The notes beneath the pieces were generated by a model. It was not told the origin of the DNA. It made no database searches and saw only the letters and a program-made list of their open reading frames with translations. From assembly GCF_016428645.1 (NCBI RefSeq), contig NZ_JAELXW010000059.1, positions 1 to 63,987 on the forward strand: a DNA stretch of 63,987 nt, given 5' to 3'. Shown here in pieces: positions 14,734-62,825 of the stretch (position 1 is its first letter; every line of letters starts with the position of its first letter). Origin of the DNA: Glycomyces salinus. Lineage in GTDB: Bacteria > Actinomycetota > Actinomycetes > Mycobacteriales > Micromonosporaceae. The position numbers and the translations under genes were made by a program.

Positions 14734-14749
14734 ACCCGGAAGGCACCTC

Positions 14750-15442: not shown

Positions 15443-15508
15443 CCGCCCCCGATCCGGCCGCGCCTCTGCGGAGTCGCGGCGGGGCCGCAGCCGTGCCACT
15501 CTGGAGGC

Positions 15509-15781: not shown

Positions 15782-15808
15782 CCGGCCCGCCGCACCCCCG
15801 CGGGCCGG
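15782..15808. terminator. Bidirectional hairpin between convergent genes
   Basis: CCGGCCCGC (15782-15790) pairs with GCGGGCCGG (15800-15808), a perfect 9-bp stem with a 9-nt loop. It lies between the stops of two convergent genes. There is no U-tract, as is common in high-GC actinomycetes. Confidence 0.6.
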
Positions 15809-15814
15809 CGACCG

Positions 15815-18031: not shown

Positions 18032-18147
18032 GCGAAGCTTTCTCGTCGGAGGGTTCCAGACGATAGCGTACGCGGTCCCTCCGAACGCGAATCCCCACTT
18101 CCGATGCGCGGCAAACCGCCTACAATGGCGTAAATCGCGGGTGTCGG

Positions 18148-41865: not shown

Positions 41866-41985
41866 GAGGTCGCTCCCACCGGTCGAAGGATCGGATTCCG
41901 CTGCGGTGCATCGCGAGCAGGAGCGCAGCGGATGCGGACCGATCCTAGGATAGCGTCGCCCCGAGAATCTGAATCGCCCCTGGCT

Positions 41986-44186: not shown

Positions 44187-44199
44187 GGATCTTCCTTCG

Positions 44200-45174
44200 T
44201 TAGACGGACGCCTTGCGGCGCAAGGTGTCGAGCAGTACGGCGAGGATGATGACCACGCCGATGACGACCTGCTGCCAGAACGCCGACACCGACAGCAGGT
44301 TGAGGCCGTTGCGGAGCACGGCCAGGATGAACGCGCCGATCAGGGTGCCGAACGCGGTGCCTTTGCCGCCGGACAGGCTCGCGCCGCCGATGACGACGGC
44401 GGCGATCGCGTCCAGCTCGTAGCCCGTGCCGGCCTGGGGCTGCGCCGAGGCCAGCCGACTGGCCAGGACGATCCCGCCGACGGCGGCGAAGCCGCCGGAG
44501 AGCGCGTAGGCCACGAACTTCTGCCGGGTGACCCGGATGCCGGAGAGGCGGGCCGCCTCCTCGTTGCCGCCGATGGCGTACATGGCTCGGCCCGAGTACG
44601 TGCGGGACAGGATCACCGCGGCGAGGGCCCCCATCCCCAGCATGATGAGCAGCGGTATCGGCAGGTAGGCGCCGATGTTGCCGCCGAGGGAGGCGATCGC
44701 GTCGGGCATGGCGATCGGGCTGCCGTCGGAGACGACCAGCGCGAGACCGCGCGCGATGCCGAGCATCGCGAGCGTGGCGATGAACGGCGGGAGCTTGCCG
44801 TAGGCGATCAGCCCCGCGCTGGCGAGCCCGCACACGATCCCGGTGGCGAGCGCCATCAGCAGCGCGAGCGGCCACGGCAGGCCGAATTCGGCGGACATTA
44901 CCCCGAGCACGATCGCCGACAGCGCGGCGACCGAACCGACCGACAGGTCGATCCCGGCGGTGACGATGACGAACGTCGCGCCCAGGGCGAGGATCGCGAT
45001 AACGGCCGCCTGGACGCCCACGTTGAGCAGGTTCGTGGGGTTCAGGAAGTCCTCGGACATCACCGCCAGGACGGCGACGAGGACGATCAGGCCGATGACG
45101 GCGCCGTTCTCGGCGGCCCAGGCGGTGATCTTCGACGGGCGCTTCGCAGCGCCGACCAAGGTGGCCTCAGACAT
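44200..45174 (-). CDS. rbsC: Ribose ABC transporter permease
   Basis: This 324-residue permease has about 10 spans. TAGIDLSVGSVAALSAIVLG near residue 70 is the RbsC/AraH family motif, and GGNEEAARLSGIRV near 200 is the ATPase contact. INAVLRNGLNLLSVSAFWQQ-like text at the end is typical of RbsC. It overlaps rbsA by 8 bases, so the two are tightly coupled. Confidence 0.94.
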   Translation of the reverse strand: MSEATLVGAAKRPSKITAWAAENGAVIGLIVLVAVLAVMSEDFLNPTNLLNVGVQAAVIAILALGATFVIVTAGIDLSVGSVAALSAIVLGVMSAEFGLPWPLALLMALATGIVCGLASAGLIAYGKLPPFIATLAMLGIARGLALVVSDGSPIAMPDAIASLGGNIGAYLPIPLLIMLGMGALAAVILSRTYSGRAMYAIGGNEEAARLSGIRVTRQKFVAYALSGGFAAVGGIVLASRLASAQPQAGTGYELDAIAAVVIGGASLSGGKGTAFGTLIGAFILAVLRNGLNLLSVSAFWQQVVIGVVIILAVLLDTLRRKASV

Positions 45175-46666: not shown

Positions 46667-47667
46667 GCGATCTCACCTTCCTCGCCACATGACTTCCGGG
46701 GGATGAACTGGGCGTGCAGCGTCGTCGACTCGGGCTCTCGGCCGTCGAGCAGGTCCAGCAGGACCGCCACGGCGCGGTGGCCGAGTTCCTCGGTCGGCTG
46801 CGCGATCGCGGTGATCGGCGGGTCGACGTGCACGAACCACGGGACGTCGTCGTAGGAGGCCAGTCCGACGTCCCGGCCGAGCCGCAGGTCGCGGCCGCGG
46901 ATCTCGTCGAGCGCGCCGAGTGCCATGAGGTTGTCGCCGGCGAAGATCACCTGCGGCGGTTCGGGGAGCGACAGGAGCCGCACGGTGCTGGCCCGTCCGC
47001 TTTCGGCCTGGAAGTCCCCGGTCTCGACGTATTCGGGCCGGATCTCCATGCCGTGCCGGCGCATCGCCGCGAGGAACGCCTCGGTGCGGTCGCGGCCGGA
47101 GGACAGCGAGTCGGGCCCGGAGATGTACCCGATCCTGCGGTGGCCGAGCCGCGCCAGATGCGCGACGAGTCCGTCGATCGCGCGCGCGCCGTCGACCCGC
47201 ACGGTCGGAACGGCCAGGCCCGGGAGCGTGCGGTCGAGGAACGCCAGGGGCCGCCCGTCCACCGCCAGTTCGGTGATCGAGGGGGTGACCTCGGCGGTCG
47301 GGCAGATCAGGAACGCGTCGACCTGCTGCTCGGCGAAGGTGCGGACGTAGTGGTCCTGCTCCTCGGCGCGTTCGTTGGCGTTCCCGATCACGACCGTGTA
47401 GCCGGCCTCCCGCGCGGCCTGCTCGACCGAGCGGGCGAGCGCGGTGAAGAACGGGTTGAGGATGTCGCCGATGATCAGGCCGATCGTCTTGGTCGCGTCG
47501 GTTCGCAGCGAGCGCGCGACGGCGTTGGGCACGTACCGCAGCTGCGTCATCGCCTCGACCACGCGGGCGCGGTTCTCCCCGCTGACCCTCGGGTTGTCGT
47601 TGATGACCCGGGACACGGTGGCGACCGAGACACCGGCTCGCGCCGCGACGTCCTTGATCCGAGCCAT
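46663..47667 (-). CDS. rbsR: LacI-family repressor of the ribose operon
   Basis: This 334-residue LacI-type repressor has a helix-turn-helix MARIKDVAARAGVSVATVSRV at residues 1-21, a hinge with YVPNAVARSLRTDATKTIGL, and a ribose-type sugar-binding domain. GTG at 47673 is possible, but ATG at 47667 is preferred because AAGGAG lies seven bases before it. It is the first gene of the operon that it controls, downstream of two identical palindromes GTAATCGATTAC. Ribose is the inferred inducer. Confidence 0.92.
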   Translation of the reverse strand: MARIKDVAARAGVSVATVSRVINDNPRVSGENRARVVEAMTQLRYVPNAVARSLRTDATKTIGLIIGDILNPFFTALARSVEQAAREAGYTVVIGNANERAEEQDHYVRTFAEQQVDAFLICPTAEVTPSITELAVDGRPLAFLDRTLPGLAVPTVRVDGARAIDGLVAHLARLGHRRIGYISGPDSLSSGRDRTEAFLAAMRRHGMEIRPEYVETGDFQAESGRASTVRLLSLPEPPQVIFAGDNLMALGALDEIRGRDLRLGRDVGLASYDDVPWFVHVDPPITAIAQPTEELGHRAVAVLLDLLDGREPESTTLHAQFIPRKSCGEEGEIA

Positions 47668-47683
47668 CCGCACACTCCTTCGT

Positions 47684-47804: not shown

Positions 47805-50800
47805 TCAGAGGCGCTCGGGCCCCAGTCCCGCCAGGACCGCCGCCAGTCCGTCGAGCACTGCCGAGAACTCCCCGCCCTCGGGGTCGACGATGTCCTTGGA
47901 GGGCGCGACGATCTCGGTCTCCGGCAGTCCCGGCCACTTCGGCTGGACCTCGCCCTCGCCGCCGTTCTCGACCGTGCGGTGCATCAGCCGGAAGGCGCTG
48001 CGCCGCCCCGCGAGCTGCGTCCATCGGGGGTCGGGGGTCGCCGTCGAGCCCGCCTCGCGCGGACCGACGCCGAGGACGCGGGCCATCGCGGCGCGGCGGG
48101 CGTCCCGCACGGTCGCGCTCACCCCGTCCTTGAGGTCGTGCCCCACGAACGCCAGATCCGTCGAGCCGTCGAAGGTCAGCCCGCGCCGGGAGAACGTCGA
48201 GCCGCCGACCAGCGCCCACACGTCGTCCACGACCGCGAAGGTGCCCCGGAGGTTCTCCGGCCGCCCCGGGAAGCCGACCGGGTGGTACACCACGACGCGC
48301 TCGGGGAACGCCTCGGCCAGCGTCGCGACGGCGCGGTTCCGCTCCAGGTGCATCCGGTGCGCGAACGGCTCGTATCCGGGTCCGAACGGGATCCGGCGGG
48401 GCGTCACCAGCACCACCTTCAGGTTCGGTTCTGCGCCCATGCGGCTCAGCAGCAGGTCCACCAGGTCCACCTTCCGGTCCGCCGTGGTGTCCGCGGTGTG
48501 CGACAGGAGCGCGGTCTCGATGTAGACCAGTTCGCGCGCCTGGGACAAGGCCCACCGCCAGGCCCACTGCGCGTCGCGCCGGCCCTGGTGGGCCGCCCTC
48601 GCTTCGCGCTTGAACTCGGCGACCCAGCGGTCGCCCGCACCCGGCTCCGGCAGCGAGGTGAGCGGCAGCAGATCGCCGGTCAGGAGCGAGCCGATCGCGC
48701 TGATCAGCCCGGACCAGGTATCGGGGAGGGTCTCGACGTCCACCAGCTCCAGGGCGGCACGGAGTTCCGGTGACTCCACCGTGTGCGCCACCGACTGGAG
48801 GACGGCGCCGGTGGCGTCGCCGGACGTGCCCGACACCGGGTTCCAGCGCGCGTTGTCGAGCTCGCTCAGGCGCGACACGATGTGGTGGGTGCGGCGCAGC
48901 GCCGCGCGGGCCAGGTCCTGCGCGAGTCGGCCGGTGACCCGGACGCCCGGGGCGTGCTCCTCGGGCCCGGCGGGCAGGCCGGGGCTGCCGCGGCGGGCGT
49001 CGCCGCCGAGCGATCTCCCGTTGAGGAAGCCCGGTCCGGCCACCGAGGTCCAGGCGCCGGGGTCGGCGCCGTCGTGTCCGGCCACGACCGTCTCCGTGCG
49101 GGCCATGGTGGCGAACCGGGGCGACTCCCGAGGTGCGGCCGCGCCGAGCGCGTCCAGCACGATGTCGGTCCCGGTGTGCGCCACGGTCTGCTCGAGCCCG
49201 AGGACCGGCGCGGGGCCGATGCCGCGGTGGTCGTCGGCGATGCCGTCGAAGGCGTTCGGGGCGGTGCCGTCCGGCGGCGCGGTGCCGCCGTCGCCGACCG
49301 CGTCGATCTCGACCGAACCGAACAGCCGCTGATCCCCTCCGGACGGTCCACGCGTGACGACGAGCAGGTCGAAGACCAGCGCGGGTGCGGACGGCCGCGG
49401 ATCGGCGCCGACCCCGTACGGGTCCGGCACGCGGATCCTGCATTCGGACCCGGCCGCGACGACGGCGCTGCCGCCGTCGCCGCGCTTGGAGAACCGCAGC
49501 AGCTCCAGCGGCACGGTCGCCCGGCCCGGGTCGACGCGCGGGAAGACCCGCACGAACGCCTCGGCGGGCAGCGCCCCGGCCGGCCAGGTCACGACCACAT
49601 CCGGGGTGGTGCCGATGTAGGCGGCGGTGGCGTCGGCGCGGGCGGCCGCGGCGTGCGCGGCGGCGAGGTCCTCGGCGGTGCCGACCGGCGCGGGCACCGC
49701 GGGCCAGCGTTCGGTGCGGCTTCCCGGCAGCGGGAAGTCGTCGGCGACGGTGGGGCTGACCGCCAGCCGCGTCCCGGACAGACCGGCGATCTCGCCCGCC
49801 GCGCCGAGGAAGGACCGCCCGTCGGGCAGCACTTCGAGGTCGCCGGTGCCGAGCTCGGGGGCCGGTTCGTTCGCGGTCGCCTCGTCGGCGCCGTCGACGC
49901 CGCCGATCGCGGTCGTGCCGCGGTTGCCCGCCAGGTGCAGGCCGAGGTCGGCGACGGCCACGCGGAAGAACTGGCGTTCGAGCACGGGGACCGGGGACCC
50001 GGCAGGGACTCCGGTGGTCGGCAGGGCCGGGGCCGAGACGGCGGTCGTGCCGAGCTCGCCGTCGGGAAGCGTCCCGATGCGGATCGCCCCGGTGTCGTCG
50101 GTGAGGGTGAGCGCACCGCTCCACTCGTGCGGCCCCGCCTCGAGGCGGGCGTCGGAGCCGATGCGCACCCCCTCACGGTCGGGCACGTCGTTCCACGGCT
50201 TCCCGAACAGGTCCACCAGGTGCACACGCACCGCCCCGGCGGTGCCGAGGCCGGCGACCTGCGCGATCGACCCGGCCCGGGCCGGATCGGAGATGTCGTC
50301 GTCGGTTCCCGCCTCGCGCCGGTGCAGGGCCGGTATGGCGCGCAGCAGGTCGCGCATCATGCAGGCGACGGCGACCGGGTCGATGATCAGCCCTCGTTCG
50401 TCGTGGAAGGTCAGGCGGCCGTGGCCGATGTCAGCTCCGGCGAGGACCGTGTCCGGCCGCATGGGCTGGTCGCTCGGCAGGTCCGGCGGCGGGGTGCCGT
50501 CGCGCAGCGCCGCGAAGAACGGCGTGGGCCGCCGGTGCTGGCCGCCGTCGAAGCGGGCGGCGACGAGTCCTTTGAGGCGGAGTGCGCCCTGCGGGTGGAA
50601 CCGCAGCACGGCGACGGTGCCGTCGAGGCTCACGCCGGCGTGGTCGGTCAGTTCGGGCGCGCCGAGCCGCGACCAGACCAGGTAGCCGTCGACCGGGGCG
50701 CGCCAGGACGCGGCGCCTTCGAGGCTCATCGCGGCCTCGTCGATGCTCGGCCGGGCGTCGGCCCACTTCGCGGACAGTTGCGCCGACGCGTGGCCGAGTG

Positions 50801-50852
50801 CCTCCAGGCCGGTGGTGTTGAACGCGGTGCTGGCGAGGGTCGAGTTGATCAC
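47805..50852 (-). CDS. Large protein with degenerate phospholipase-D-like C-terminal half (third gene of giant operon)
   Basis: This 1015-residue protein has no signal peptide or membrane span. Up to about residue 750 it is beta-rich and Gly/Ala/Pro-rich and I do not recognise it. From about 770 it resembles half a phospholipase D: ARELVYIETALLSHTAD, then LKVVLVTPRRIPFGPGYEPF, and FAVVDDVWALVGGSTFSRRG near 870-890. In true PLDs the last segment is H-x-K-x4-D...GSxN; here H and K are replaced by R and T while D and G-S remain. So it is probably inactive as a phosphodiesterase. GTG start, overlapping the preceding gene by 4 bases (GTGA). The function is unknown. Confidence 0.7.
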   Translation of the reverse strand: MINSTLASTAFNTTGLEALGHASAQLSAKWADARPSIDEAAMSLEGAASWRAPVDGYLVWSRLGAPELTDHAGVSLDGTVAVLRFHPQGALRLKGLVAARFDGGQHRRPTPFFAALRDGTPPPDLPSDQPMRPDTVLAGADIGHGRLTFHDERGLIIDPVAVACMMRDLLRAIPALHRREAGTDDDISDPARAGSIAQVAGLGTAGAVRVHLVDLFGKPWNDVPDREGVRIGSDARLEAGPHEWSGALTLTDDTGAIRIGTLPDGELGTTAVSAPALPTTGVPAGSPVPVLERQFFRVAVADLGLHLAGNRGTTAIGGVDGADEATANEPAPELGTGDLEVLPDGRSFLGAAGEIAGLSGTRLAVSPTVADDFPLPGSRTERWPAVPAPVGTAEDLAAAHAAAARADATAAYIGTTPDVVVTWPAGALPAEAFVRVFPRVDPGRATVPLELLRFSKRGDGGSAVVAAGSECRIRVPDPYGVGADPRPSAPALVFDLLVVTRGPSGGDQRLFGSVEIDAVGDGGTAPPDGTAPNAFDGIADDHRGIGPAPVLGLEQTVAHTGTDIVLDALGAAAPRESPRFATMARTETVVAGHDGADPGAWTSVAGPGFLNGRSLGGDARRGSPGLPAGPEEHAPGVRVTGRLAQDLARAALRRTHHIVSRLSELDNARWNPVSGTSGDATGAVLQSVAHTVESPELRAALELVDVETLPDTWSGLISAIGSLLTGDLLPLTSLPEPGAGDRWVAEFKREARAAHQGRRDAQWAWRWALSQARELVYIETALLSHTADTTADRKVDLVDLLLSRMGAEPNLKVVLVTPRRIPFGPGYEPFAHRMHLERNRAVATLAEAFPERVVVYHPVGFPGRPENLRGTFAVVDDVWALVGGSTFSRRGLTFDGSTDLAFVGHDLKDGVSATVRDARRAAMARVLGVGPREAGSTATPDPRWTQLAGRRSAFRLMHRTVENGGEGEVQPKWPGLPETEIVAPSKDIVDPEGGEFSAVLDGLAAVLAGLGPERL

Positions 50853-53800
50853 GGGGCGCTCCAGGATGACGAGGTGCGGCGTCCCAGCGGGTCGGTCGCA
50901 TCGGCGGTGACCGACAGCGGGGCGGCGGCGAATCGGGCGGTGACACGGTAGGGGTCGGCGGCGGTGGGGCGGTGCAGGAACAGCTCCGGCGCGTCCGGCG
51001 GCGGCGTCCCGGTGAACGACGGCAGCGAGGCGATATCGCCTCGCAGCACGGTCGTCTCGGTCTCGCCGTCGTTCGCGCGCACCGCGACGACCGAGACGGT
51101 GAAGGCCCCGAGCCGGGTGCGCAGCGGCGACGCGTCGGTCCGGAAACCGGCGACGGCCCCGCCGGAGCCGTCGGTGGCGGGCACGACGGTCAGGCCGGTC
51201 ACGGTCGGCGCGTGCGGCGAGGGCACGATGACCTCCACCGCCGGGCTCGGGTGGGAGCGGCCCCGGATCTGGCCGAGCGAGGCGTCGGCCGAGGCGACCG
51301 CGACGGCCCGGTAGTAGACCGGCTCCCACGGCGGCAGCGGGTCCGAATCGGTCAGTTCCCAGTGGAGCCTGCCGTCTTCGGCCGTCGCCGTGGCGGCGCC
51401 CGCGATCAGCTCCGGTTCTCCGGCCGCCTCCGGTGTGCCGGAGTTGACTCTGCCGCGCACTCGGCCGATCTCGATGCGTTCGACGGCGACCGGTTCGTCG
51501 TCCACGGTGGCCGAGAGCCGGACCGACGCACCGTCCATGTGCGCCAGCAGCAGTGGCGTAGCCGGTTCGAGCCGGGCGGGCACGGCGACGGCGAGGTACT
51601 GGTTCGCGTCGGCCGGAAGGCGCCGTTCGACGCCGGTGTCGCTGACCGAGGAGATCCCGTAGAAGTAGACCAGCCGGTTGCCCTTGGGCAGTTCGACTTT
51701 CAGCCTCGGTTCGGTCAGCCGCTCGGCGAGGCGCCGGAAGGCGCGTCTGGCCGCGCCGAAGTCGCGGACGCGCAGGTCCGCGAGCCGTTCGGCGGCGGGC
51801 CGGTCCAGATCGGGCGAGGGGAGGCCGAGTTCGCGGGCCACGGCCGACTCGTCGGCGACGTACACCGTGTAGCCGGGTCCGGCCCCGGACCAGTCGAGGA
51901 CGGCGCGGGACACGCCTGCGGCATCGGGGAGCGAGGCCCACAGCATCGGCGCGGTCGTCACCGGCGCGGGCGGCGGCAGGGGGCTGGCCACGCCGGTCCC
52001 CACCGGGGCGGAGAACTCGCTCGACTTGAGCGGGCGGACCAGCTCGGCCGCGCGGGCTTTGGCCTCGACGCGGATGCGCGGGTGGGCCGCGTACGGCAGC
52101 CCCAGGCCGGGGATCGTGCACCGGTAGGTCCGCAGGTCGCCTTGGCGCTCTTCGAGGATCTCCTCGACGCCGGTCGGGGGCGACTCGCTCGAGGCCCCCG
52201 AGAACGAGATCACGTGGTCGTCGACCCGGGGGCCGCCGGGGGAGAGGACCGATCCGTCCACGTCCGGCGGGGCCGTGCCCTCGGGGTGCACGAGGAGGCG
52301 GACGCGCACCTCCGCCGGGCGGCGGTCGGCCCAGTCCCAGGTGAATTCGACCGCGGCGGCCGGGGCGGGCCCGGCCTCGTCGATCTCGACCCGGCGCACC
52401 GTCGGCCGCTGCGGCGGCACGACCAACCGGTCGTGTTCCACCGACCGCCACGGGCTCCAGCGCCCGAACCAGTCCTGGGCCGCGACGCTGAAGCGGGCTG
52501 TGCGGCCCTCCCCGGGGAAGCGCTCGGGGACCGCCGACTGGGTGTACTTGACCCGGTCGGTCTCGCCGCTCAGCCCCGGCACGAACACCCGGTGCCCGCC
52601 CGAGGGGCGCTTGTCGAGCGCCGGTTCGAGGTCGGATCCGCCGACCGAGCCGAGCACGGCGTAGCTCGAGGCGCCGATCCCGGTGGCCGCCTCCGGCCGG
52701 TCCGCATCCCAGGTCAGGTCGACGATCTCCAGCCATGGCCGGTCGATCCCGCCGGGCCGGTCCAGGCGCGGGCTCGTCCGGTCCGCGTTGACGCGCATAC
52801 GCGTCGGCGCGTCCGGCGGGTCGCCGCCGACGTCGACGAGCGCGGCCAGGTCGTGTTCGAACGGCAGCCGCAGGTCCAGGCCGGCTACCGACATTTTGAA
52901 CTCGGCCTTGTGCTCCAAGGTCACCATCAGCAGCCCGCTCATTCGCGACGGCTGCTCGATCCGGTGGGTCACCACCGGGGGTACGGCCATGAGCGTGGTG
53001 GCGTCGATCGAGGTGCCGAAGCCCAGGGCGAGCGCCGCGTACGGGTCGGTTCCGGCCGCCAGCAGCGCCGACTGCAGCGGCGGCATCTTCGCGTTCGAAG
53101 TCGATCGCCAATGCGAGGGGGCGTCGGTGCCGTGCACCGACCGCGGCACCGGCATGGACTGCTCGATCACGAACCCGGCGTGGTGGCTGCGGTCGCCGGT
53201 CAGCCGCAGCATCTCCGCCAGCTGCTTCATGGTCGGCTCCAGCTCGCCGCGCACCAGGGCCTCGGGGTCGGGCGGTGCGAACGGCGGCGCCGGGAGCCCG
53301 GAATCGGTCGCGGGCGGCCAGAAGTCGGCCGGGGTGCCGCGGTCGACACGCCGGATCGCGGCCTTGACCGGGTCGGTCAGGGCGCCGGGCGGGCCCTGCG
53401 GGTCGAGCGGGTACCCGCCGGAGAACCGCTTGTCGACCGGGAGGCCGACGTATTCGAGCAGCCGCCATCCGGGGTCGTCGACGTGGCGTTGCAGGTCGAG
53501 GACCACCGCGCCGGTGACCGTCGTGTTCGGACCGGTGGTGATGGACCGGATGGACGCGCCGGCGAGGGTGAGGCCGATCCCGGTGGCCGGACCCGAGGCG
53601 GTGACCTCGTCGACCACTTGGCCGGAACCGGAAGGGCCGGAGTGCGCGCGGACCAGCGCCCGACCCGATCCGACGTCCAAGTCGAGCCGCACCATCGCGG
53701 CGGCCCGCTCGCCCGGCCAGGTGTGGAGCACCCGGTCCCGTCCGATCGGGCGCGACCGGACGTCGACCTTTTCGGCCTTGGTGGACGGCTTCGGCAGGTG

Positions 53801-53935
53801 CCACACCTTGAAGTGCGTCGCCGGCAGGCCGAGCTTCGGATCGATCATCCAGCGCAGCGCGGCCCTGGCGCCGTCGCGGGTGTCGATCACGGCGCCCCTG
53901 GCGTTGAACAGGTTGGGCATCACGGTGCGGGTCAT
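50849..53935 (-). CDS. Large multi-module beta-rich protein (second gene of giant operon)
   Basis: This 1028-residue protein has no signal peptide. The first 60 residues contain RWMIDPKLGLPATHFKVWHL, and after that it is made of beta-strand modules. At least three resemble fibronectin III/immunoglobulin-like folds: near residue 510 (PTVRRVEIDEAGPAPAAAVE), near 660-695 (VLDWSGAGPGYTVYVADES) and near 910-950 (PHAPTVTGLTVVPATDGSGG). Such modules bind proteins or carbohydrates. The ATG overlaps the first gene's stop (ATGA) and its own stop overlaps the third gene. It is probably a structural or binding partner of the other two; no enzyme motif was found. Confidence 0.65.
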   Translation of the reverse strand: MTRTVMPNLFNARGAVIDTRDGARAALRWMIDPKLGLPATHFKVWHLPKPSTKAEKVDVRSRPIGRDRVLHTWPGERAAAMVRLDLDVGSGRALVRAHSGPSGSGQVVDEVTASGPATGIGLTLAGASIRSITTGPNTTVTGAVVLDLQRHVDDPGWRLLEYVGLPVDKRFSGGYPLDPQGPPGALTDPVKAAIRRVDRGTPADFWPPATDSGLPAPPFAPPDPEALVRGELEPTMKQLAEMLRLTGDRSHHAGFVIEQSMPVPRSVHGTDAPSHWRSTSNAKMPPLQSALLAAGTDPYAALALGFGTSIDATTLMAVPPVVTHRIEQPSRMSGLLMVTLEHKAEFKMSVAGLDLRLPFEHDLAALVDVGGDPPDAPTRMRVNADRTSPRLDRPGGIDRPWLEIVDLTWDADRPEAATGIGASSYAVLGSVGGSDLEPALDKRPSGGHRVFVPGLSGETDRVKYTQSAVPERFPGEGRTARFSVAAQDWFGRWSPWRSVEHDRLVVPPQRPTVRRVEIDEAGPAPAAAVEFTWDWADRRPAEVRVRLLVHPEGTAPPDVDGSVLSPGGPRVDDHVISFSGASSESPPTGVEEILEERQGDLRTYRCTIPGLGLPYAAHPRIRVEAKARAAELVRPLKSSEFSAPVGTGVASPLPPPAPVTTAPMLWASLPDAAGVSRAVLDWSGAGPGYTVYVADESAVARELGLPSPDLDRPAAERLADLRVRDFGAARRAFRRLAERLTEPRLKVELPKGNRLVYFYGISSVSDTGVERRLPADANQYLAVAVPARLEPATPLLLAHMDGASVRLSATVDDEPVAVERIEIGRVRGRVNSGTPEAAGEPELIAGAATATAEDGRLHWELTDSDPLPPWEPVYYRAVAVASADASLGQIRGRSHPSPAVEVIVPSPHAPTVTGLTVVPATDGSGGAVAGFRTDASPLRTRLGAFTVSVVAVRANDGETETTVLRGDIASLPSFTGTPPPDAPELFLHRPTAADPYRVTARFAAAPLSVTADATDPLGRRTSSSWSAP

Positions 53936-56900
53936 GGCATCTCCCAAGCGGGACGGTCGAGCGGGAACTCGCCGAGCAGCGCGGCGGTGTCGGTGGTGTC
54001 GAGGTCGAGCAGCGGGTGCAGTTCGCGGGCGAGGCCGAGGGCGACCGTCGATCCGCGCGCGCCGGCCTTGAGGAAGGCGAGCGTGCGGGCGCCGCCGGTG
54101 TCGCGGGCGAACCGCTCGACCTTCGCGGTCGCGGGCGGCTCGGGCCGCGCTCCGTCGGGCAGGTTCCGCAGGAACTTCTCGCGCAGCTCCGCTATGGACG
54201 GCGCCCGGGTCTCCAGTGCCGTACGTCCCGGCCGGACGTACGCGGACTCGACGAGCGGGCCGCTGCCGGACTCGATCAGCTCGTCGACCACGAGCCATTC
54301 GCTCCGGCCCAGCCGCCACTGCAGAATGTGGACGCCGTCGTCGGCGTAGACCGGCTCCGGTTCGAGGCGGCTGCGCCACAGAGGCTCGGGCGCCTCGATG
54401 TAGATCGCGACCGGGGCCGACACCTCCTCGCCGTTCCACAGGACGGTGACCTGCGGACTGACCGGCCGCGGACGGGCCTCCAGACCGGCCGCCGTAAGCG
54501 CCCGGTCGAACTCGTCTCCACCGACCGCGCCGTCCATCGCGATGAGCGAGGACAGGTCCTCCACCCGCTGGTGGACGACCCTGGACTCCCGGACGGCGCG
54601 GGCGAAGTCGTCCCGGCTGCCGTACCGGGAGGTCGTCATCCGCTGCCGGTACAGCGGCCGCTCACCGACCTCGCCTTCGCGGCGTTCGGGCGCGGCGACC
54701 TCGCCGCCGTCGTCCAGGGCCTCGATGTCGACGACGTAGTCGGTGACCGGGTCGAGGTGGAAGTCCACCACGGCGCGGCCGTGCCGGTCGCCGCCGGGGT
54801 CGAAGTCCCGGCACGGCTTGTCGGCGAGGAGCCGACGCGCGGTCGCTTCGAACGGCGACAGCACCAGCGCCTCCATCCGCTCGAACAGCCCGTCGAGCAT
54901 GATCCGGGTGAACGGCGCCTCCGGGGTGCCGTCCGAACCGCGGAACGACGCCGCGCGGGCCGCCGCCCGCAGGGACCGGTCGTAGGCGGCGTACAGCTCG
55001 AGCACGTCGTCGGTGGCGAACACGAACACCACCGGGTCGTCGTGGAAGTGGTGCGGCTCGTCGGGGGCCGGGAACTGCGCGAGCATCCACGGTTCGAGGT
55101 TGCGCGGCGCCTCGTCGTCGGTGAAGAACGTGCGGGTGTCGGTCTCATCGCTGACGGTCCATTTGACGTCGATCTGGTTCGGGTCGCCCTCCTCGCCGTC
55201 GCTCGGTTTGCGTCCGGTCTCGGCGGTGTAGTGGACGACGACCCGGTATTCGGCGTCGGGAAGCAGCAGCGCGTGCGGGTCGGAGTCCAGCGAGTCCGCC
55301 AGGGCCTGCTCGTCGGCCTCGGCCCGCCGGTCCTCGGCCTCATGGCGGCGCCGCTCGCGCTCCGAGAAGCCCTCGAAGGCGACCAAGAACCACGAAGGGG
55401 CGACCAGTCCGAACTTCTCGACGGCGTCCCCGAGCGGCCGGATGCCCAGGTCGATGTGGAAGGCGGCGCGGCTCGGCTTGACGTGGACGAGGAACTCGGC
55501 CTTGCGTTCGGCCCCTGCGGCCGGGCCGCGGGCGAGCCGCACCTCGTCCCACCAGGAGCCGCGGGGGTCGGTCCAGCGGCTCGGCAGGTCGGTCTCGGCG
55601 TCGACCCGCTCGAACGCGACGTCGACGCGGCCCAGGTCCCGGTTCTCGGCGTCGTAGGCGGCGGCGTCCATCAGCCCGGACGCCACGAGCTTCTCGTCGG
55701 CCACGACCAGGAGCGTCATCGCCTCGTGCGGGCCGCCGCTGATCCGGATGACGTCCCGGAGCTCCTTGGCCCTGGCCCGGTCGGCCAGGTCGAGCGCCTC
55801 ACCGAGCGGGCTGTCGAAGTCCTGCGGCGGCAGCGAGGCGCCGAGCAGCTCGTACGGTGCTTCGAGCGCTTTGGAGACGCACAGCTTGTCGCCTCTTTCG
55901 TGGGCCCGTCTCTGCAGCTCCTCCGACGGGCACTGCGCCTGCGCACCGACGACCTCGGCGGGTTTGTGCGGGAGGAGCCCGTCGAGCGGGGTGCCGGTCC
56001 GCCAGGTCTCGCGGACGAGTACCTCGGTGTCGACCGGCCGACCGCGGCGGGACCCCGGCTCGTCCGGCCAGGCCTCGCCGTGCGGGTTCCAGCCGGAGTC
56101 GTTCGGCCCGAGCGGGCTGTCGCGGAAGGTCCACAGGACGCTGGCGGGCCGGGCGACCGGCGTGCACGCCTCGCCCCAGCCGTCCTCGACGATCCGGTCG
56201 AGCGTCTCGCCCTCGAGGATCGCCTTGTCGGTGTTCGTCGGCTTCCAGTCCAGCATGGCCAGATCGACCGGGAGCCCGTCGCCGCTGCCGTCGTCGGGCC
56301 CGATCCGCCACGTGTACGGCCTGGGGCCGTCCGTGGTCGGGTCGGTCCCGGCCGCGACCGGGGCGCCGTGCTGAGCCACCAGCCTGAGCTCGACCTCCCT
56401 GACGTGGTAGCGCACATAGACCATGCCGCGCTTCTGCCAGCCGTCCTCGCCGGGCGGCGGCGCGCCCTGGACGGTCCCGTCGATCGCGGAGCCGTCCACG
56501 ACCGGGCCGGCCTCGAACTGCAGCAGCGGGATCGCGTCGATCGGGACGCGCACCTCCCGCGGGCCGTCGCCGCCGTCGACCACCGGGACGGTGCCGTCCT
56601 GAGTGCCGCGGCACAGCACCGTGTCGACGCCGCGGTCGACCGCGCTGCCCTCGGCCAGGGCCGGGGAGCGGCTCTGGAGGGTGAGGTCGCGGATCGGCCG
56701 GGGCGGGGGCGGCTCGTCGGGATCGTTGCCGAGAGAGAACTCCACGCAGGCCTCGATGGTGAAGAACAGCAGGCTGACCTTCCCGCAGACCTCGCCGTGG
56801 ATGAAGGTGACCAGTTCGGTCGACGGCGGATCGCCGTGGCCGGTCTCGACCTCGGCGGCCTTGACCGTGAGCGCGGCGCTGGCCTCGATGGCGACGATGA

Positions 56901-59900
56901 TCAGGTGCAGCGCGCCTTCGAGGTAGAGCCGGCCCGCGAACGTCAGCGGCGCGAAGCCGATACCGGCGTCGAATCCCGCGGCGACCTGGAGGTACAGGCC
57001 GATGTCCTTCTCGCCCCAGGTGATCGACACGCCGAATCCGGTGGCGAGGGAGAAGCCCTGTAGGCCGTCCCTGAACAGCGGGAACTCGCGGATGCCGTTG
57101 CCGTGGACCATGAGATAAGCGGTGGCCTCGAACAGTTCGAGGACCGTGGCCTTGATCGGCTCGCTGATCGTGCCGATGTCGACGTAGAAGTTCTCGGGGT
57201 CCTCGAAGGGGAAGCCGGCCTCGATGGGGATCTGGAGGTGGAGGATCTCTTTGATCTCGTACTCGATCTGGATGCCGATCATCACCCCGGACGGGCCGAT
57301 GTCGACCACGGCCAGCAGGTTCCCGGTGGTCTGGCCCTTGACCGGGGGTTTCTTGCTGAGCAGTTGGGCCTTGACGAACAGGAGGATCCGCGGTCCGGGC
57401 AGCTCGAGGACGAGCATGCCCTTGATGTTGAGGATCGTGCCGCCCTCGATGGTGCCTGCGACGACGCCGAGGCCGAAGGCCCAGGAGTCGAGTTGCCCCT
57501 TCCAGCCGGTGATGTCGGTGGGGTTGCCGCGCACTTTGGAGTCGAGCCAGTCGAGGGCGGGGTTCCGGGCGGAGGTGTCCTCGTCGCGCGCGTGGTGCAT
57601 CGCGAACAGGCCGAGGAAGCCGAAGATCGCCATGCCCGTGCCGCCGAGTGGGATCCCGCCGGGGAACTCGACTTCGAGGGTCGCCAGCACGCCGGTGGCG
57701 GAGCGGTCGCCCTCCTCGACGGTCTGGATCTTGACTCCGGCGGCGACCCGCAGTCCGACCGTCGGCAGGGCCAGGTCGAGTTGGCCGGCGAAGCCGTCGT
57801 CGTAGATCTCCAGGTAGCCCTTGCCCACGAGGGTGTCGGGGATGTCGACGCCGATGCCGATGGCGGTGATCGTCGGCGCCCCGAGCGGGTCGACCGGCAG
57901 CCGGAATCCGAACTTGTCGACCTTGAACACGCCGAGGTCGACGCCGAGGCCGAGGTCGACCTCGATGTTGAGCGGGTTGGTCCTGGCGATGCGGGCGCCC
58001 AGGACCTGGATGATGTCCCCGATGGCGTCGCCGAGCGCGGGCAGGACCCGCAGCGATCCGGAGTCGGCCAGGTCGAGCGTGTAGCCGCGGGAGGAGTCGA
58101 ACACCGGGCGGAAGTCGGCCGTGCCGTCGGGGGAGACGTCGAGGCCGAAGCCGATCGCCTTGTAGCGCACCTTGATCGGCTTGTCGACGCGGGTGGTGAC
58201 GATCTCGAAGTCCTCGACGGCCAGGTTCAGGCGGATGGCGCTCTCGACGTCGAACAGCAGGACCGAGTGGACCTCGTCCTCGTCGTGGGTGACGCCGAGT
58301 TCGACCCCGTAGTGGGTGAAGCGGTCGACGTGCGCGATGCCGAGCGCGGTGACGACGATCGGCGTCGCCAGGGACACGACCAGCGGGGCGACGTCGCCGC
58401 CGTTCGCGGCGTCGGCCGCGGTGGACGCGGTCAGCGGGGCGAGGGCGAAGTAGAGGCCGAGCAGGTCGCGCCAGGCGTCGTCAGTCGGGGTCGCGTCCTG
58501 GGAGGCGGGGATTTCGCCCCAGCTCCACAGCCCGTCCCGGTCGCCCGCGCCGGCGCGGGCGACGAGGGTCTCGGTGAAGGTGGCGGTGGCCGGGTCGTGG
58601 GTGACGGTGATGCGGAACTCGACCACGCCGTCGTCGGGGTTGGGTTGCGAGTCGGGCTCGGGAAGGTTGCCCTCCTCGGGCTCCTCCAGGCCCGGGCCGA
58701 TCGTGTCGAGGTCGTCGCGGTACTCCTCCAGCGCGTCCTCGTGGGCGGTCTGGAAGTCGATGGTGCCGCGCAGTTCGGCGGCGATCGGGACCGGGTCGCG
58801 TTCCCAGCGGACGGTGGCGCCGATGCTGCGCAGCCAGTCCGGGCGCTGCGACTCCGGCGGCGAGATCGGATCGTCCTCTTCGGTCTCGTCGGGTTCGGCC
58901 GGGTCTCGGATCAGCTCGCCCGCGTAGGGGTCGGTGCGCGGCGCGGTCCGGACGAAGGTGGCCTCGACGTAGCGGAACGCTTCGCGATCGTAGTTCGGAT
59001 CGCGGTTCATCTCGTTCTCGGCCGGGCCCTCGCCCCTGACACTGATCGTGAAGTCGCCGTCGCGCAATCCGTCGATCTCGTCGAACAGGCGCCTCTTGAG
59101 CGCTTCGGCGCGGCGTTCGCAGAGGGCGATGTTGTAGTCGGCATTGGGGTCGCGCTCCCGGCTCGCAAAGGCCTCGAGCTGGATCCGCGGCCTGTTGCCC
59201 GAGGCGAGCTCGGCTTCCCAGCTTCGCCGGAACGCTCCGAAGTCGAGGTGGGTGCCGCCTCCCGAGTCGATGGGGCTGCCGCTCAAGGTGGCCGTGTCGG
59301 TCGTCTCCCGGGTTCCCCGTCTGCCGTCGCCGGGCTCGGCGAACCTGAAGTAGGCCGTGAGGGCGGCCGGCTCGGGGCCGGGCGGGACGGTCCAATCGAC
59401 GTTGAGCGGCCGCGTCTGCCCGGGTGCGATCGGCAGGGTGGCGCGGCCGTCGGTCACGGTGGCGCCGGCGATGGTGCCGTCGGGCGGATCGAGCCGGACG
59501 GTCACCTGGGCCGGATCGGACTGGTCGACGATGCGGACGCGGTCGGTGGGCGGTTCGAGGCGGACCGCGGGGGCCCTGGTCGAGCCGGGCGACTCCGGTC
59601 GGCCGCTGAGCTCGCGGACGGCGTAGAGGTCGAGGACGAGGTACCGCTTCCGGTCTTCGCGGTCGGTGATGCCCACGACCACCTGCTGATCGGGGGAGAA
59701 CAGCCGCATTCGCTGGAGCGCGGAGAGGTCTCGCACGTCGGAGGTGCCCGCGATGAAGGCGTCGAGGTCGTCGGTATCGGCGGTGTGGGCGTCGACCGCT
59801 CCGTGGTCGAGCGCGTGGGCCGCGGCGATGGTGTACGGGGCCGCGCCCGAGTGCACGTCGACCATGAGCAGGTGGTTCTCGTTCTCCGGGCGCATGTTCG

Positions 59901-60933
59901 AGCTGACGTTCGCCCGGTACCGCAGCAGCTCGGGAGGGTCGCCGTCTCGTCCGGGCGCGGGCTCGATCTCGACCGCGGTGCCGCCGGCGCTGATCAGCCG
60001 CAGATCGGCCGTGAGGGCCTCGCCGCGGAAGTCGACGTCGAAGCTGAGGTCGCCCCAGAGGGCCGGTTCGGGCTTGAAGCCGATGACCAGGTCGCGCGCG
60101 CCGACGTTGCCGGCGTACCCGACCGACTGGGCCTGCGAGAAGTAGAACCGGAACTCGGGCAGGTGGATGCCGGTGAAGTCGTCGCCGAGTCCGAAGCGGT
60201 CGAGCAGGTCGGGCGGGGTGTGCTTCTCGGACAGGTCGAGTACGGCCTTCTCCAGGCCGATGCCGAACTGGTTGTTGTCGAACAGGGCGTGGGCGGGCCG
60301 CATCTTGAACAGGGAGGCGACCTCCTCGTCGGGCTCGTTGAGCGTCTCGGCGCCCCACGAGGTGACCTCGATTTCGGCCTCGGTGTCGGATCCGGAGTCC
60401 TGGTCGATCTGGAGCACGATGCGCGGCAGGTCGAACTTGACCTCCCGCTGGGTCGGGTGGGGTTTGAGGAAGGCGCCGTCGGGTTCGGCGCCCACCAGGC
60501 CGGGGAAGGTGAGGGTGATCAGGTTGAAGAGCAGTTCGAGGCGGAACTGGGTGTTGGGGTAGTCGCTGGGGGCGCTGTCGGCGGGACCGAGCGCCCGGAC
60601 GGCCGTCCGGAGGCCGCTGTCGCTCAGGTCGTCGGCGGAGAGCGCCCCGGCCGGTCGGCGGGCGACCGACAGCCGGAATTCGACGGCCGTGTCCTGGGGG
60701 TCGAACTCGAGGCCGCTCGCGCCCGGCGCGGTGGAGTTCAAGGAGAACGCCAGGACACCGGTCGACTCGTCGGCGACGCGCGCGACGCCGTGGATGACGA
60801 CCCCGTCGTCGTCCCACGCCTCCTCGTATTCGTCCACGTGCAGGAATTCGAGGATCTGATTGAACTCCTCGCCGAGATCCACCCCGACGAAGAAGTACGG
60901 CCGGATCAGATCGATGAGCGCGAGATTTCCCAT
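53932..60933 (-). CDS. Giant 2333-residue protein with OmpA-C-like module and long glycine-rich beta region (first gene of giant operon)
   Basis: The chain starts MGNLALIDLIRPYFFVGVDL with no signal peptide. Residues about 560-668 match the OmpA-C fold: ADYNIALCERRAEALKRRLF followed by SVRGEGPAEN and an end like FRYVEATF; the Arg equivalent to the one binding diaminopimelate is kept (ERRA), the paired Asp is not clear. From about 830 to 1400 come long amphipathic strands with Gly and hydrophobics (ALGDAIGDIIQVLGARI near 964, GGIPLGGTGMAIFGFLGLFA near 1090-1110). This recalls DUF6603-type lamellar proteins, by resemblance only. Residues 1410-2333 are acidic and mixed alpha/beta, unrecognised. 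GGAG lies nine bases before the ATG. The next gene overlaps by 4 bases. Function unknown. Confidence 0.75.
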   Translation of the reverse strand: MGNLALIDLIRPYFFVGVDLGEEFNQILEFLHVDEYEEAWDDDGVVIHGVARVADESTGVLAFSLNSTAPGASGLEFDPQDTAVEFRLSVARRPAGALSADDLSDSGLRTAVRALGPADSAPSDYPNTQFRLELLFNLITLTFPGLVGAEPDGAFLKPHPTQREVKFDLPRIVLQIDQDSGSDTEAEIEVTSWGAETLNEPDEEVASLFKMRPAHALFDNNQFGIGLEKAVLDLSEKHTPPDLLDRFGLGDDFTGIHLPEFRFYFSQAQSVGYAGNVGARDLVIGFKPEPALWGDLSFDVDFRGEALTADLRLISAGGTAVEIEPAPGRDGDPPELLRYRANVSSNMRPENENHLLMVDVHSGAAPYTIAAAHALDHGAVDAHTADTDDLDAFIAGTSDVRDLSALQRMRLFSPDQQVVVGITDREDRKRYLVLDLYAVRELSGRPESPGSTRAPAVRLEPPTDRVRIVDQSDPAQVTVRLDPPDGTIAGATVTDGRATLPIAPGQTRPLNVDWTVPPGPEPAALTAYFRFAEPGDGRRGTRETTDTATLSGSPIDSGGGTHLDFGAFRRSWEAELASGNRPRIQLEAFASRERDPNADYNIALCERRAEALKRRLFDEIDGLRDGDFTISVRGEGPAENEMNRDPNYDREAFRYVEATFVRTAPRTDPYAGELIRDPAEPDETEEDDPISPPESQRPDWLRSIGATVRWERDPVPIAAELRGTIDFQTAHEDALEEYRDDLDTIGPGLEEPEEGNLPEPDSQPNPDDGVVEFRITVTHDPATATFTETLVARAGAGDRDGLWSWGEIPASQDATPTDDAWRDLLGLYFALAPLTASTAADAANGGDVAPLVVSLATPIVVTALGIAHVDRFTHYGVELGVTHDEDEVHSVLLFDVESAIRLNLAVEDFEIVTTRVDKPIKVRYKAIGFGLDVSPDGTADFRPVFDSSRGYTLDLADSGSLRVLPALGDAIGDIIQVLGARIARTNPLNIEVDLGLGVDLGVFKVDKFGFRLPVDPLGAPTITAIGIGVDIPDTLVGKGYLEIYDDGFAGQLDLALPTVGLRVAAGVKIQTVEEGDRSATGVLATLEVEFPGGIPLGGTGMAIFGFLGLFAMHHARDEDTSARNPALDWLDSKVRGNPTDITGWKGQLDSWAFGLGVVAGTIEGGTILNIKGMLVLELPGPRILLFVKAQLLSKKPPVKGQTTGNLLAVVDIGPSGVMIGIQIEYEIKEILHLQIPIEAGFPFEDPENFYVDIGTISEPIKATVLELFEATAYLMVHGNGIREFPLFRDGLQGFSLATGFGVSITWGEKDIGLYLQVAAGFDAGIGFAPLTFAGRLYLEGALHLIIVAIEASAALTVKAAEVETGHGDPPSTELVTFIHGEVCGKVSLLFFTIEACVEFSLGNDPDEPPPPRPIRDLTLQSRSPALAEGSAVDRGVDTVLCRGTQDGTVPVVDGGDGPREVRVPIDAIPLLQFEAGPVVDGSAIDGTVQGAPPPGEDGWQKRGMVYVRYHVREVELRLVAQHGAPVAAGTDPTTDGPRPYTWRIGPDDGSGDGLPVDLAMLDWKPTNTDKAILEGETLDRIVEDGWGEACTPVARPASVLWTFRDSPLGPNDSGWNPHGEAWPDEPGSRRGRPVDTEVLVRETWRTGTPLDGLLPHKPAEVVGAQAQCPSEELQRRAHERGDKLCVSKALEAPYELLGASLPPQDFDSPLGEALDLADRARAKELRDVIRISGGPHEAMTLLVVADEKLVASGLMDAAAYDAENRDLGRVDVAFERVDAETDLPSRWTDPRGSWWDEVRLARGPAAGAERKAEFLVHVKPSRAAFHIDLGIRPLGDAVEKFGLVAPSWFLVAFEGFSERERRRHEAEDRRAEADEQALADSLDSDPHALLLPDAEYRVVVHYTAETGRKPSDGEEGDPNQIDVKWTVSDETDTRTFFTDDEAPRNLEPWMLAQFPAPDEPHHFHDDPVVFVFATDDVLELYAAYDRSLRAAARAASFRGSDGTPEAPFTRIMLDGLFERMEALVLSPFEATARRLLADKPCRDFDPGGDRHGRAVVDFHLDPVTDYVVDIEALDDGGEVAAPERREGEVGERPLYRQRMTTSRYGSRDDFARAVRESRVVHQRVEDLSSLIAMDGAVGGDEFDRALTAAGLEARPRPVSPQVTVLWNGEEVSAPVAIYIEAPEPLWRSRLEPEPVYADDGVHILQWRLGRSEWLVVDELIESGSGPLVESAYVRPGRTALETRAPSIAELREKFLRNLPDGARPEPPATAKVERFARDTGGARTLAFLKAGARGSTVALGLARELHPLLDLDTTDTAALLGEFPLDRPAWEMP

Positions 60934-61373
60934 GAGTCGGGCTCCTGTGCGGTGTACTCGGTGGGCGGAGGGGCTGACGGGGGTCGAGGTGCGCGGAATG
61001 CTCGGGCAGAGTCGAAGGCACGCGTCTGCAAGCCGATGAAGTACCAGCATTCGACAAGTCTTAAATGTCCAATTAGTCCATCGACTCATCCAAGTGGACG
61101 ATGACGACGACAGCCTGAGTATGGCACTGATCACGTCCTTGTGGGGTACGTGAATGACCGTGCGTTTGCCGCTCGGGCTCGCCTCTCGCCTCGACCGGCG
61201 AGATCACCGGGCCGCGATCGAGCCCCTCTCGGCCGTGCAGAGGGCGGCCGTGGCGAGGTCGCGTGCACCCGCCCACCACACAACGAGGACTGGAGGAGCC
61301 TCGCGGCGGGAGCCCGTGATGCGGGGATCTGAGGAAGCCCCGAGGCGGGAAGCCCCGGGGCCGTCCGGCCGAC
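60934..61373. other. Intergenic region upstream of the giant operon
   Basis: This 440-bp region has no gene I can support. It holds a terminator-like hairpin for the sugar dehydrogenase (61337-61361) and an AT-richer patch near 61060-61085, which is where a promoter of the giant operon would be expected. I could not fix a convincing -35/-10 pair in it. Short frames on the plus strand lack coding bias. Confidence 0.4.
61337..61361 (-). terminator. Hairpin after the sugar dehydrogenase gene
   Basis: GCCCCG (61337-61342) pairs with CGGGGC (61356-61361), a 6-bp stem with a 13-nt loop, 13 bases after the stop codon. GAAGCCCCG also occurs twice as a direct repeat here. Confidence 0.4.
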
Positions 61374-62825
61374 TTAGACGTCGAGGTAGTCGATGTTGGG
61401 CAGCCCGTCCCAGCCGGTCGCGACCAGGCGGATGGTGTTGTCCCCCTCGTTCAGCGGGACCGTCACCGTCTTCGTGCTCCAGGCCGACCACGAACCGGTG
61501 CTCTCGAACGATGTGGACGTTACGGTGGAACCGTTCACCACCACATCGGCCCCGCGGGCGCCCCCGGAAGAGCCGTTGGCGAACCCGATCTCCACGGTCG
61601 CCTCGCCCGCGCTGTCGGCGGTCACGGTGAACTGCGAGGCCGTGTCGATGGTGTTCGGAGTGTTGCAGAAGCCCGAACCGGAGTAACCGGCATGGTTCGC
61701 ATCGATCGTGCCGTCGCAGACCGCCGGCGCGTCCTCGGCCTCGTAGCGCATCGGGTCGTCACTGCCGCCGCCGAGCGGCTGGTAGCGGACGAGGATGTCT
61801 TCGCCCGAGCCGTTCGAGGTCGCGAGCCACAGCCGGCCGTCGGGGGCCACCTCGACCGTTCTGATCCGGCCGAGCGTCCCTTCGAGCACCGCAGTCGGCT
61901 CGCCTGCTTCGCCGCCCGACACCGGCACCGTCCACAGGCGCTCGCCGCGCAGCGCGCCGACGTACGCCACGTCGTCGACGATCTCGAGCCCCGAAGGGGA
62001 GGCCTCGGCGGGCCGCCAGGTGATCAGCGGGTCGGTGAACTCCGGCTCACCGCCGGAGCCCTCGACCACGGGCCAGCCGTAGTTGGCTCCGGCCTCGATG
62101 TGGTTGAGCTCGTCCCAGGCGTCCTCGCCGAACTCGCTGGCGTACATCTCGCCGCTCGAGTCCCAGGCCAGCCCCTGGACGTTGCGGTGGCCGTAGCTGT
62201 AGACCGGCGAGCCCGCGAACGGGTTGTCCGCGGGGACCGACCCGTCGGGCTCGATCCGCAGGATCTTGCCGGCCAGGCTCTGGAGGTCCTGGGCGTTGGC
62301 CGTGTCCTGCGCATCTCCGGTCGTGATGTAGAGGTTCCCGTCCGGTCCGAAGGCCAGTCGGCCGCCGTCGTGGTTGCGCGCGGCGGGAATGCCGGTCAGG
62401 ATCGGCTCGGGCGCGAAGTCGTCGATGGTGAAGCGCACGACCCGGTTGTCCTGGTCGGTGGAGTGGAAGGCGTAGACGTAGCCGTCCTGCTCGTAGTTCG
62501 GGGATACGGCCAGGCCCAGGAGCCCGCGCTCGTCCCACGGCCCGTCGGGCGGAGGGACCTCGATTTCTCCGACGACCTCGGAAGCGCCGGACTCGTTGTA
62601 GAGCAGGACCGTGCCGCTGTCGCGGTCGGAGACCAGGGCCCTCCCGTCGGGCAGGAAGGCGAGTCCCCAAGGGATCGAGTGCCCTTCGGCCACCACTTGC
62701 CCGTTCCCGAAGTCGAACCCGGCCTGCTGCGCCGGTTCGACCTCTTCCGGATCGGCATGCGCCACCGCCGTACCGACGCCGAGCGACGCGATCGCGAGCG
62801 CTGCGACCGCCAGTTTGCGTCGCAT
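61374..62825 (-). CDS. Secreted PQQ-dependent sugar dehydrogenase with C-terminal carbohydrate-binding module
   Basis: This 483-residue protein has a signal peptide (RRKLAVAALAIASLGVGTAVAHA, cleavage near residue 25). Residues 35-345 form a soluble glucose/sorbosone dehydrogenase-type six-bladed propeller: IPWGLAFLPDGRALVSDRD, then NHDGGRLAFGPDGNLYITTGD, and GHRNVQGLAWDSSGEMYASEFG with the usual His and Arg for PQQ. A CBM6/35-like beta-sandwich (about 355-483: YEAEDAPAV, then GSWSAWSTKTVTVPLNEGDN) completes it. It oxidises aldose sugars outside the cell and may be anchored on polysaccharide. AAGGAG lies six bases before the ATG and a palindrome at 62839-62852 is close by, so repression is likely. 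Confidence 0.9.
   Translation of the reverse strand: MRRKLAVAALAIASLGVGTAVAHADPEEVEPAQQAGFDFGNGQVVAEGHSIPWGLAFLPDGRALVSDRDSGTVLLYNESGASEVVGEIEVPPPDGPWDERGLLGLAVSPNYEQDGYVYAFHSTDQDNRVVRFTIDDFAPEPILTGIPAARNHDGGRLAFGPDGNLYITTGDAQDTANAQDLQSLAGKILRIEPDGSVPADNPFAGSPVYSYGHRNVQGLAWDSSGEMYASEFGEDAWDELNHIEAGANYGWPVVEGSGGEPEFTDPLITWRPAEASPSGLEIVDDVAYVGALRGERLWTVPVSGGEAGEPTAVLEGTLGRIRTVEVAPDGRLWLATSNGSGEDILVRYQPLGGGSDDPMRYEAEDAPAVCDGTIDANHAGYSGSGFCNTPNTIDTASQFTVTADSAGEATVEIGFANGSSGGARGADVVVNGSTVTSTSFESTGSWSAWSTKTVTVPLNEGDNTIRLVATGWDGLPNIDYLDV

Follow-up and report, generated by a model that had tools for sequence, protein, structure and literature searches.

A 13 kb operon of three large genes, here named A, B, and C, lies on the minus strand of a contig from Glycomyces salinus (NZ_JAELXW010000059.1), whose full 63,987 nucleotides are referred to as the window. 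The operon spans positions 47805-60933 and encodes 4376 residues in total, and its A/B and B/C junctions are 4-base overlaps, ATGA and GTGA, respectively. We found that A-B(-C) is an operon that is inherited as a unit, has moved horizontally, and encodes large proteins in which no signal peptide was detected. The coordinates, lengths, and overlaps were re-derived and agree with an earlier sequence-only reading of this DNA, which had described proteins of 2333, 1028, and 1015 residues on one strand. That reading had also noted no transposase or phage gene alongside, and none was seen among the open reading frames (ORFs) from position 40000 on, in a reading rather than a full annotation.

Table 1. 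Position of the operon, its parts, and the block shared with a second Glycomyces genome.
Feature	Position	Strand	Remarks
Gene A	53932..60933	-	2333 aa; DUF6603-family giant; N-terminal region, OmpA-like insert, predicted amphipathic beta core, C-terminal region
Gene B	50849..53935	-	1028 aa; partner adjoining A in every locus with sequence past A
Gene C	47805..50852	-	1015 aa, GTG start; predicted pseudo-phospholipase D
OmpA-like segment of A	58954..59235	-	residues ~567-660; Ser591 replaces the Asp of the peptidoglycan-binding pair, Arg608 kept
Folded part of A	56434..58866	-	residues 690-1500; predicted helix pair ~820-863, then antiparallel beta meander ~867-1402
Predicted two-lobed phospholipase D (PLD) fold of C	47880..49955	-	residues ~300-991
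Degenerate second HKD motif of C	48204..48248	-	R869-x-T871-x4-D876-D877-x5-G883; aligned to relatives keeping HxKxxxxD
Upstream stretch	60934..61165	-	~230 bases kept in the Glycomyces sp. L485 copy; may include the promoter; the shared block ends here
Block common with Glycomyces sp. L485	47792..61165		89.6% identity; nothing else longer than 150 bases aligns

Homologues at E up to 0.001 were found in 62 other proteins for A, 44 for B, and 68 for C, not all of them full-length; these counts are lower bounds, as about 8000 candidates sharing the most words were scored. Because A, B, and C are conserved in so many other proteins, chance ORFs are excluded. Comparison with Glycomyces sp. L485 gave dN/dS ratios of 0.32 for A, 0.35 for B, and 0.27 for C, and therefore all three genes are maintained under purifying selection. 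The stretch upstream of A has AT-rich patches that could hold a promoter, and a consensus scan of it found no promoter-like site.

None of the three proteins has a signal peptide detectable by a crude hydropathy test, which is not a signal-peptide predictor. The best 11-residue hydropathy within the first 45 residues is 1.41 for A, 0.57 for B, and 1.13 for C, against 2.57 and 2.59 for two secreted proteins of the window used as controls, which bears out what had been read from the sequence. Among relatives, a value above 2.2 was reached by none of 32 B proteins and by one of 45 C proteins, and the highest among 13 A proteins was 1.91.

Conservation and spread of the A-B(-C) unit

We scanned GTDB genomes with the A alignment, through two short A motifs, and obtained 63 loci (L002-L064). 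All were reached via A, so the survey covers only copies of B and C that accompany it. B directly follows A in all 59 loci with continuing sequence; the other four contigs end 0-2 bases past A. C follows B in 31 loci, that is, in 30 of the 56 with at least 1.5 kb past B and in L057, and was not detected by its profile in the other 26 of the 56. A very remote C could escape this profile, and the gene calls in the flanks are crude, made without a gene finder. C is thus not obligatory. Most of the loci with room in which it goes undetected (21 of the 26) are Actinomycetota by record title, such as Kribbella, Cellulomonas, and Microbacterium.

A and B are tightly spaced in nearly all loci; the distances are approximate, since the starts of B and C were taken from the alignment. 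The A-B junction measures between -8 and +14 bases in 51 of 54 loci; the exceptions are L051, at 78 bases, and the fragmented loci L014 and L054. Between B and C, an overlap is found in six of 30 measured loci and a gap of 8-44 bases in the other 24. In L054 (positions 9992-18450), from Methylobacillus glycogenes, A and B are broken into several pieces, by decay or sequencing error; this locus was excluded from the A alignment together with L007 and L045, all three having A pieces shorter than 1600 aa. Pairwise distances of the three proteins in 30 sets (29 loci and the window) correlate at 0.983 for A-B, 0.986 for A-C, and 0.977 for B-C, with 0 of 999 permutations matching in each case, indicating that the components have not been reshuffled; shared ancestry alone gives such values.

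These data bear on two interpretations. The window has a high GC content and long antisense ORFs, as would suit three unrelated genes adjacent by chance, or long reading frames that are mere artefacts of GC richness; against this stand the invariable A-B adjacency, the 31 loci with C, the purifying selection, and the correlated distances, which leave such an explanation a negligible probability. The sequence-only reading had proposed that the three genes form one complex or particle, since ‘overlaps imply fixed stoichiometry’. Its argument from overlaps is not supported, as B and C overlap in a minority of loci and C often goes undetected, while the constancy of B after A and the A-C correlation show that the genes are conserved as one unit; a physical complex of A, B, and C is plausible. 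That reading would have been refuted had the genes not been conserved together or had each fallen into a well-described unrelated family. Neither is the case: the genes keep together, and C alone can be placed in a well-described superfamily, there as a pseudoenzyme.

The unit is spread widely and sporadically. The order A-B-C occurs in loci that we take, from record titles, to belong to Actinomycetota, Chloroflexota, Bacteroidota, Pseudomonadota, Bacillota, Nitrospirota, Acidobacteriota, and Gemmatimonadota. Within Glycomyces, the window and strain L485 have the operon block in common between unrelated flanks, and both records reach past the block (by 2.7 kb on the shorter side); neither terminal inverted repeats nor a target duplication were found at its ends. 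A protein of another Glycomyces (NPDC021274) is 72% identical to A, and C was found in one of 21 congeners searched. In a sample of 198 Actinomycetota genomes, A was matched at E up to 1e-20 in none but the genome of the window.

The next-closest A proteins among 60 aligned loci come from a Chloroflexi metagenome-assembled genome (MAG; identity 0.53), Reyranella (0.51), Mariniphaga (0.51), and a Chitinophagaceae MAG (0.45). In contrast, the 22 other actinobacterial copies listed, in a list that is not complete, reach 0.33 or less. The homology with L485 confined to the block, together with copies from other phyla that are closer than most actinobacterial ones compared, indicates that the operon moves as a block. 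The near group is not limited to other phyla and also includes some actinobacteria, as judged from the Nocardioidaceae contig L007, 49% identical to A over residues 292-1441 and too short to align, and from Trebonia- and Nocardioidaceae-named proteins that match C at 54-55%. As for a phage origin, no relative was found among the viral contigs or phage records searched.

Predicted structures of the three proteins

C is predicted with confidence to have a complete phospholipase-D fold (pLDDT 87.0, pTM 0.90), which corrects its earlier description as an ‘inactive PLD half’, since the model has both lobes. By sequence, the second lobe aligns to motif-bearing actinobacterial PLDs with an hhalign probability of 99.0 (E 4.3e-18); no PLD likeness was detected by sequence in lobe 1, whose assignment rests on structure. 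A profile of 45 C sequences gave a marginal PDB match to plant PLD alpha (E 1), and one of 19 sequences gave nothing. In the fold search of C, a high rank went to vaccinia F13, whose PLD fold serves in the wrapping of membranes.

The C family is also predicted with confidence to have lost the catalytic HKD motif. HxKxxxxD is present in all six actinobacterial PLD relatives compared and in none of 45 C-family members; at the second motif, His and Lys are each found in 0 of 45, and Asp876 in 45 of 45. Thus, C resembles the PLD superfamily (human PLD1/PLD2, plant PLD alpha, bacterial PLDs) in its two-lobed fold and differs from it by the missing motif, ~300 extra N-terminal residues, and fixed partner genes.

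A is a DUF6603 protein by unbroken homology to proteins that match this Pfam family (PF20248). The family is detected in 25 of 61 aligned A cores at E up to 0.01 (best 2e-15), and homologues that carry PF20248 are up to 52% identical to A. The window's A, as a whole protein or as its core, has no PF20248 match in Pfam; searching the window's genome with the PF20248 profile also gave no match, a result that is uninformative, as the controls gave none either. It is the core of A that is homologous to these proteins, and Pfam describes a domain, not an A-B-C unit.

The N-terminal half of A includes an OmpA-like segment. A profile of the A family matches the OmpA-like PDB entry 6u83 at E 1.7e-4, and its PDB matches otherwise comprise OmpA-like chains and two chance-level rows; Pfam OmpA (PF00691) scores 12.3 bits on A, below the cut-off of 27.2. 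According to PMC7573547, Asp271 and Arg286 of Acinetobacter baumannii OmpA are the residues that bind diaminopimelate. In our own mapping of this pair onto the A columns, 58 rows have a letter at the Asp column, of which 56 show Ser and none shows Asp, and the Arg608 column holds Arg in 53 of 53. In a Hyphomicrobiales MAG whose A is without the OmpA-like segment, a gene of 153 aa just upstream (L029:8631-9092) carries a motif that by eye is similar to the segment, with no Pfam match.

Beyond this segment, A is predicted with confidence to have a long, largely amphipathic antiparallel beta core. The AlphaFold2 model of residues 690-1500 has a mean pLDDT of 78.6 and a pTM of 0.53, and its core strands are mostly 9-19 residues long. 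The two faces differ by at least two Kyte-Doolittle units in 22 of the 30 listed strands of seven or more residues, and eight alternate weakly. Windows of strong alternation cover 77% of residues 1024-1405, compared with 76% in TamB and 61% in YhdP, 51% in TamA and 43% in LamB, and 42% and 48% in the soluble controls MalK and TldD, six comparison proteins making up the whole benchmark. Elsewhere in the unit, the share is 59% in the N-terminal 560 residues of A, 44% in its C-terminal part, 50% in B, and 43% in C. The sole stretch in A, B, and C that resembles a membrane helix (A 848-869) lies within the predicted helix pair before the beta core.

The model reads as a large amphipathic sheet that may take a closed or an open form. 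Its top structural matches are porins, with poor superposition, and weak Foldseek rows include other long-meander proteins, namely LptD, ushers, FadL, and ApoB100, with TM scores of 0.3 or below in the rows checked. LptD, FadL, and ApoB100 handle lipid; porins and ushers do not. A fold search against viral models gave nothing useful. In its very high share of strongly alternating beta-type sequence, A is similar to the AsmA/TamB/YhdP beta-groove lipid-transfer proteins (PMC11014939). It differs from them in having no hidden Markov model match and no N-terminal membrane anchor seen, in occurring also in Gram-positive bacteria, and in a fold list headed by porins, not groove proteins. With E up to 10 allowed, none of four proteins had a listed match to an AsmA-type profile, under filters that drop most matches above 0.1, and the absence of AsmA/TamB-type chains from the fold-list rows listed for the A core excludes nothing.

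The sequence-only reading had described a chain of beta-sandwich-like modules, which for B is a putative assignment. Pfam gave no match for the window's B, nor for eight full-length B proteins from other loci, and 32 aligned members gave one weak, unrelated match; a sequence profile of B found nothing significant in the PDB. Precomputed annotation places PASTA in three of 45 proteins of the B search, C-terminal by eye in the two sequences inspected.

Searches of Pfam, NCBIfam, PADLOC, and PHROGs found nothing above cut-off for A, B, or C, the OmpA match being the sole sub-threshold entry listed by Pfam. PDB searches with single A and single C sequences found nothing, and no domain of the Tc/Rhs families (Tc-type toxin complexes) is among the Pfam and NCBIfam matches of the three proteins. 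The earlier statement that no described system has this gene set holds for the searches made, which met none. We rate the A-B-C unit as new as a system, C as a variant of a known superfamily, and A as a member of an uncharacterised family.

Cousin loci, proposed function, and rivals

Related gene clusters are found on plasmids of more distant bacteria. In Mycetohabitans (L073:5192-18213), a 1322-aa protein and a PLD with HxKxxxxD precede a 2496-aa DUF6603 protein, and transposase genes flank the cluster. It is similar to the operon in that a DUF6603 giant adjoins a PLD, to which the C profile aligns (hhalign probability 95.5, E 1.5e-8), and a large third protein; it differs in gene order, in a PLD that keeps its motif, and in a DUF6603 protein without a Pfam OmpA match. 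When this DUF6603 protein was compared with 249 genomes of the phylum of the Pseudomonas fluorescens carrier, only the centre genome matched.

An Azospirillum plasmid (L079:12450-22790) encodes a DUF6603-like protein of 1572 aa (tblastn with A, E 3e-11), an overlapping 1083-aa gene, and then a 786-aa gene, whose product could not be placed in a family by eye. In a short variant from Streptomyces, a hemopexin protein comes next. The B analogues of Mycetohabitans and Azospirillum escaped the B profile, and their assignment is in part visual. From these three arrangements, and thus from few loci, a core of the A-B type looks constant and the third position variable.

We tentatively propose that A, B, and C assemble into a soluble complex that binds lipid or membranes, whose mechanism we infer as follows. 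The beta core of A would offer a hydrophobic face, as a groove or as a sheet able to close on lipid or insert into it. C would have given up hydrolysis and kept a PLD cleft that recognises a phospholipid head group or a similar phosphodiester, and B might bridge A to C or to a surface. The cousin locus in which a DUF6603 giant accompanies a motif-bearing PLD suggests that lipid is the common theme, within which C lost its catalysis. The fuller version, a lipid-handling machine in which a soluble, unanchored giant presents a continuous hydrophobic beta surface and a retired PLD serves as head-group receptor, in a cassette that crosses phyla and is shared by Gram-positive and Gram-negative bacteria, is unlikely to hold in all its parts.

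The main rival, which we regard as somewhat doubtful, is a released particle that targets walls or membranes: made in the cytosol and freed by lysis or an exporter, it would attach to other cells by its wall-binding modules, the OmpA-like segment and PASTA, and insert the amphipathic A sheet as a pore. The lack of a detectable signal peptide, the sporadic spread with transfer as a block, the OmpA-like insert with its invariant Arg608, the occasional PASTA, and the porins at the head of the structural rows of the A core are all consistent with such a particle. No release or injection gene was seen recurring among the neighbours listed, however, and the peptidoglycan-binding Asp is replaced by Ser almost throughout the family. 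A further argument against it is that the C-terminal PLD lobe of C shows conservation, not variability, across 19 aligned members. An injection-system partner was rejected: the contractile tail sheath PF04984 was over cut-off in seven of 31 genomes (that of the window plus the genomes of 30 loci from the set of 63), and the window's genome gave no match.

A structural or storage assembly, be it a cytosolic shell, a filament, or a surface layer, would have A as its wall, B as its connector, and in C a PLD fold kept for structure only. It would account for the size, beta content, and tight co-inheritance of the proteins, for the loss of the catalytic motif, and for the high rank of F13. Such an assembly appears quite improbable, given that C goes undetected in 26 of 56 loci with room and that a strong hydrophobic face is unusual for a soluble shell. 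The patchy spread, with C in one of 21 congeners and A in the window's genome only of 198, might also suit an anti-phage or inter-microbial conflict system; PADLOC and PHROGs gave no match, no relative was met in viral contigs or phage records, and no defence gene was seen recurring among the neighbours listed, making this very unlikely.

The family-wide pseudo-PLD fixed beside a giant amphipathic beta protein is a concrete, testable entry into a family without an assigned function. If the lipid-binding proposal is true, bulk lipid handling would extend beyond membrane-anchored groove proteins. The unit is large and present in eight phyla by title, yet no paper in the open-access library searched, which leaves subscription papers and preprints largely outside, names DUF6603 or PF20248, its only Pfam family.

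Neighbouring genes

Upstream of the operon, positions 61374-62825 encode a secreted-type glucose/sorbosone dehydrogenase (GSDH) with a CBM6/35-type tail. A GSDH also lies upstream of A in Paenibacillus, a recurrence that is likely due to chance, because every one of 22 Glycomyces genomes has GSDH matches and the gene lies outside the block common with L485; a relative 81% identical in another Glycomyces (G010) has a different setting. Neighbour clusters that reach distant loci, among those listed, are generic families at varying distances, including short-chain dehydrogenases (nine loci), LacI-type regulators, and sugar ABC parts. Candidates set aside as non-recurrent are a Tle1-like gene in Massilia, the hemopexin gene after the short variant, and metallo-beta-lactamase-fold genes.

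Just upstream of A in two Massilia loci (L012:6181-9360 and L022:6105-9357) is a gene for a Tle1-like phospholipase of the type VI secretion system, along with others, an assignment tested with Pfam in L012 only; no such genes lie there in a third Massilia, L046. Upstream of the L485 copy (L002:6432-9533) lies a gene for a 1033-aa protein that appears by eye to be helical-repeat-like, with no Pfam match. The region upstream of A in Pseudomonas fluorescens (L025:5218-9696) encodes in a row two proteins that are by eye patatin-like and HExxH-peptidase-like, and one with a weak metallo-beta-lactamase-fold match. Downstream of the operon in the window, positions 38710-47673 hold two genes that by eye from the ORFs are alpha-galactosidase-like and HAD-like, along with a ribose-type ABC transporter operon that has a LacI-type regulator.
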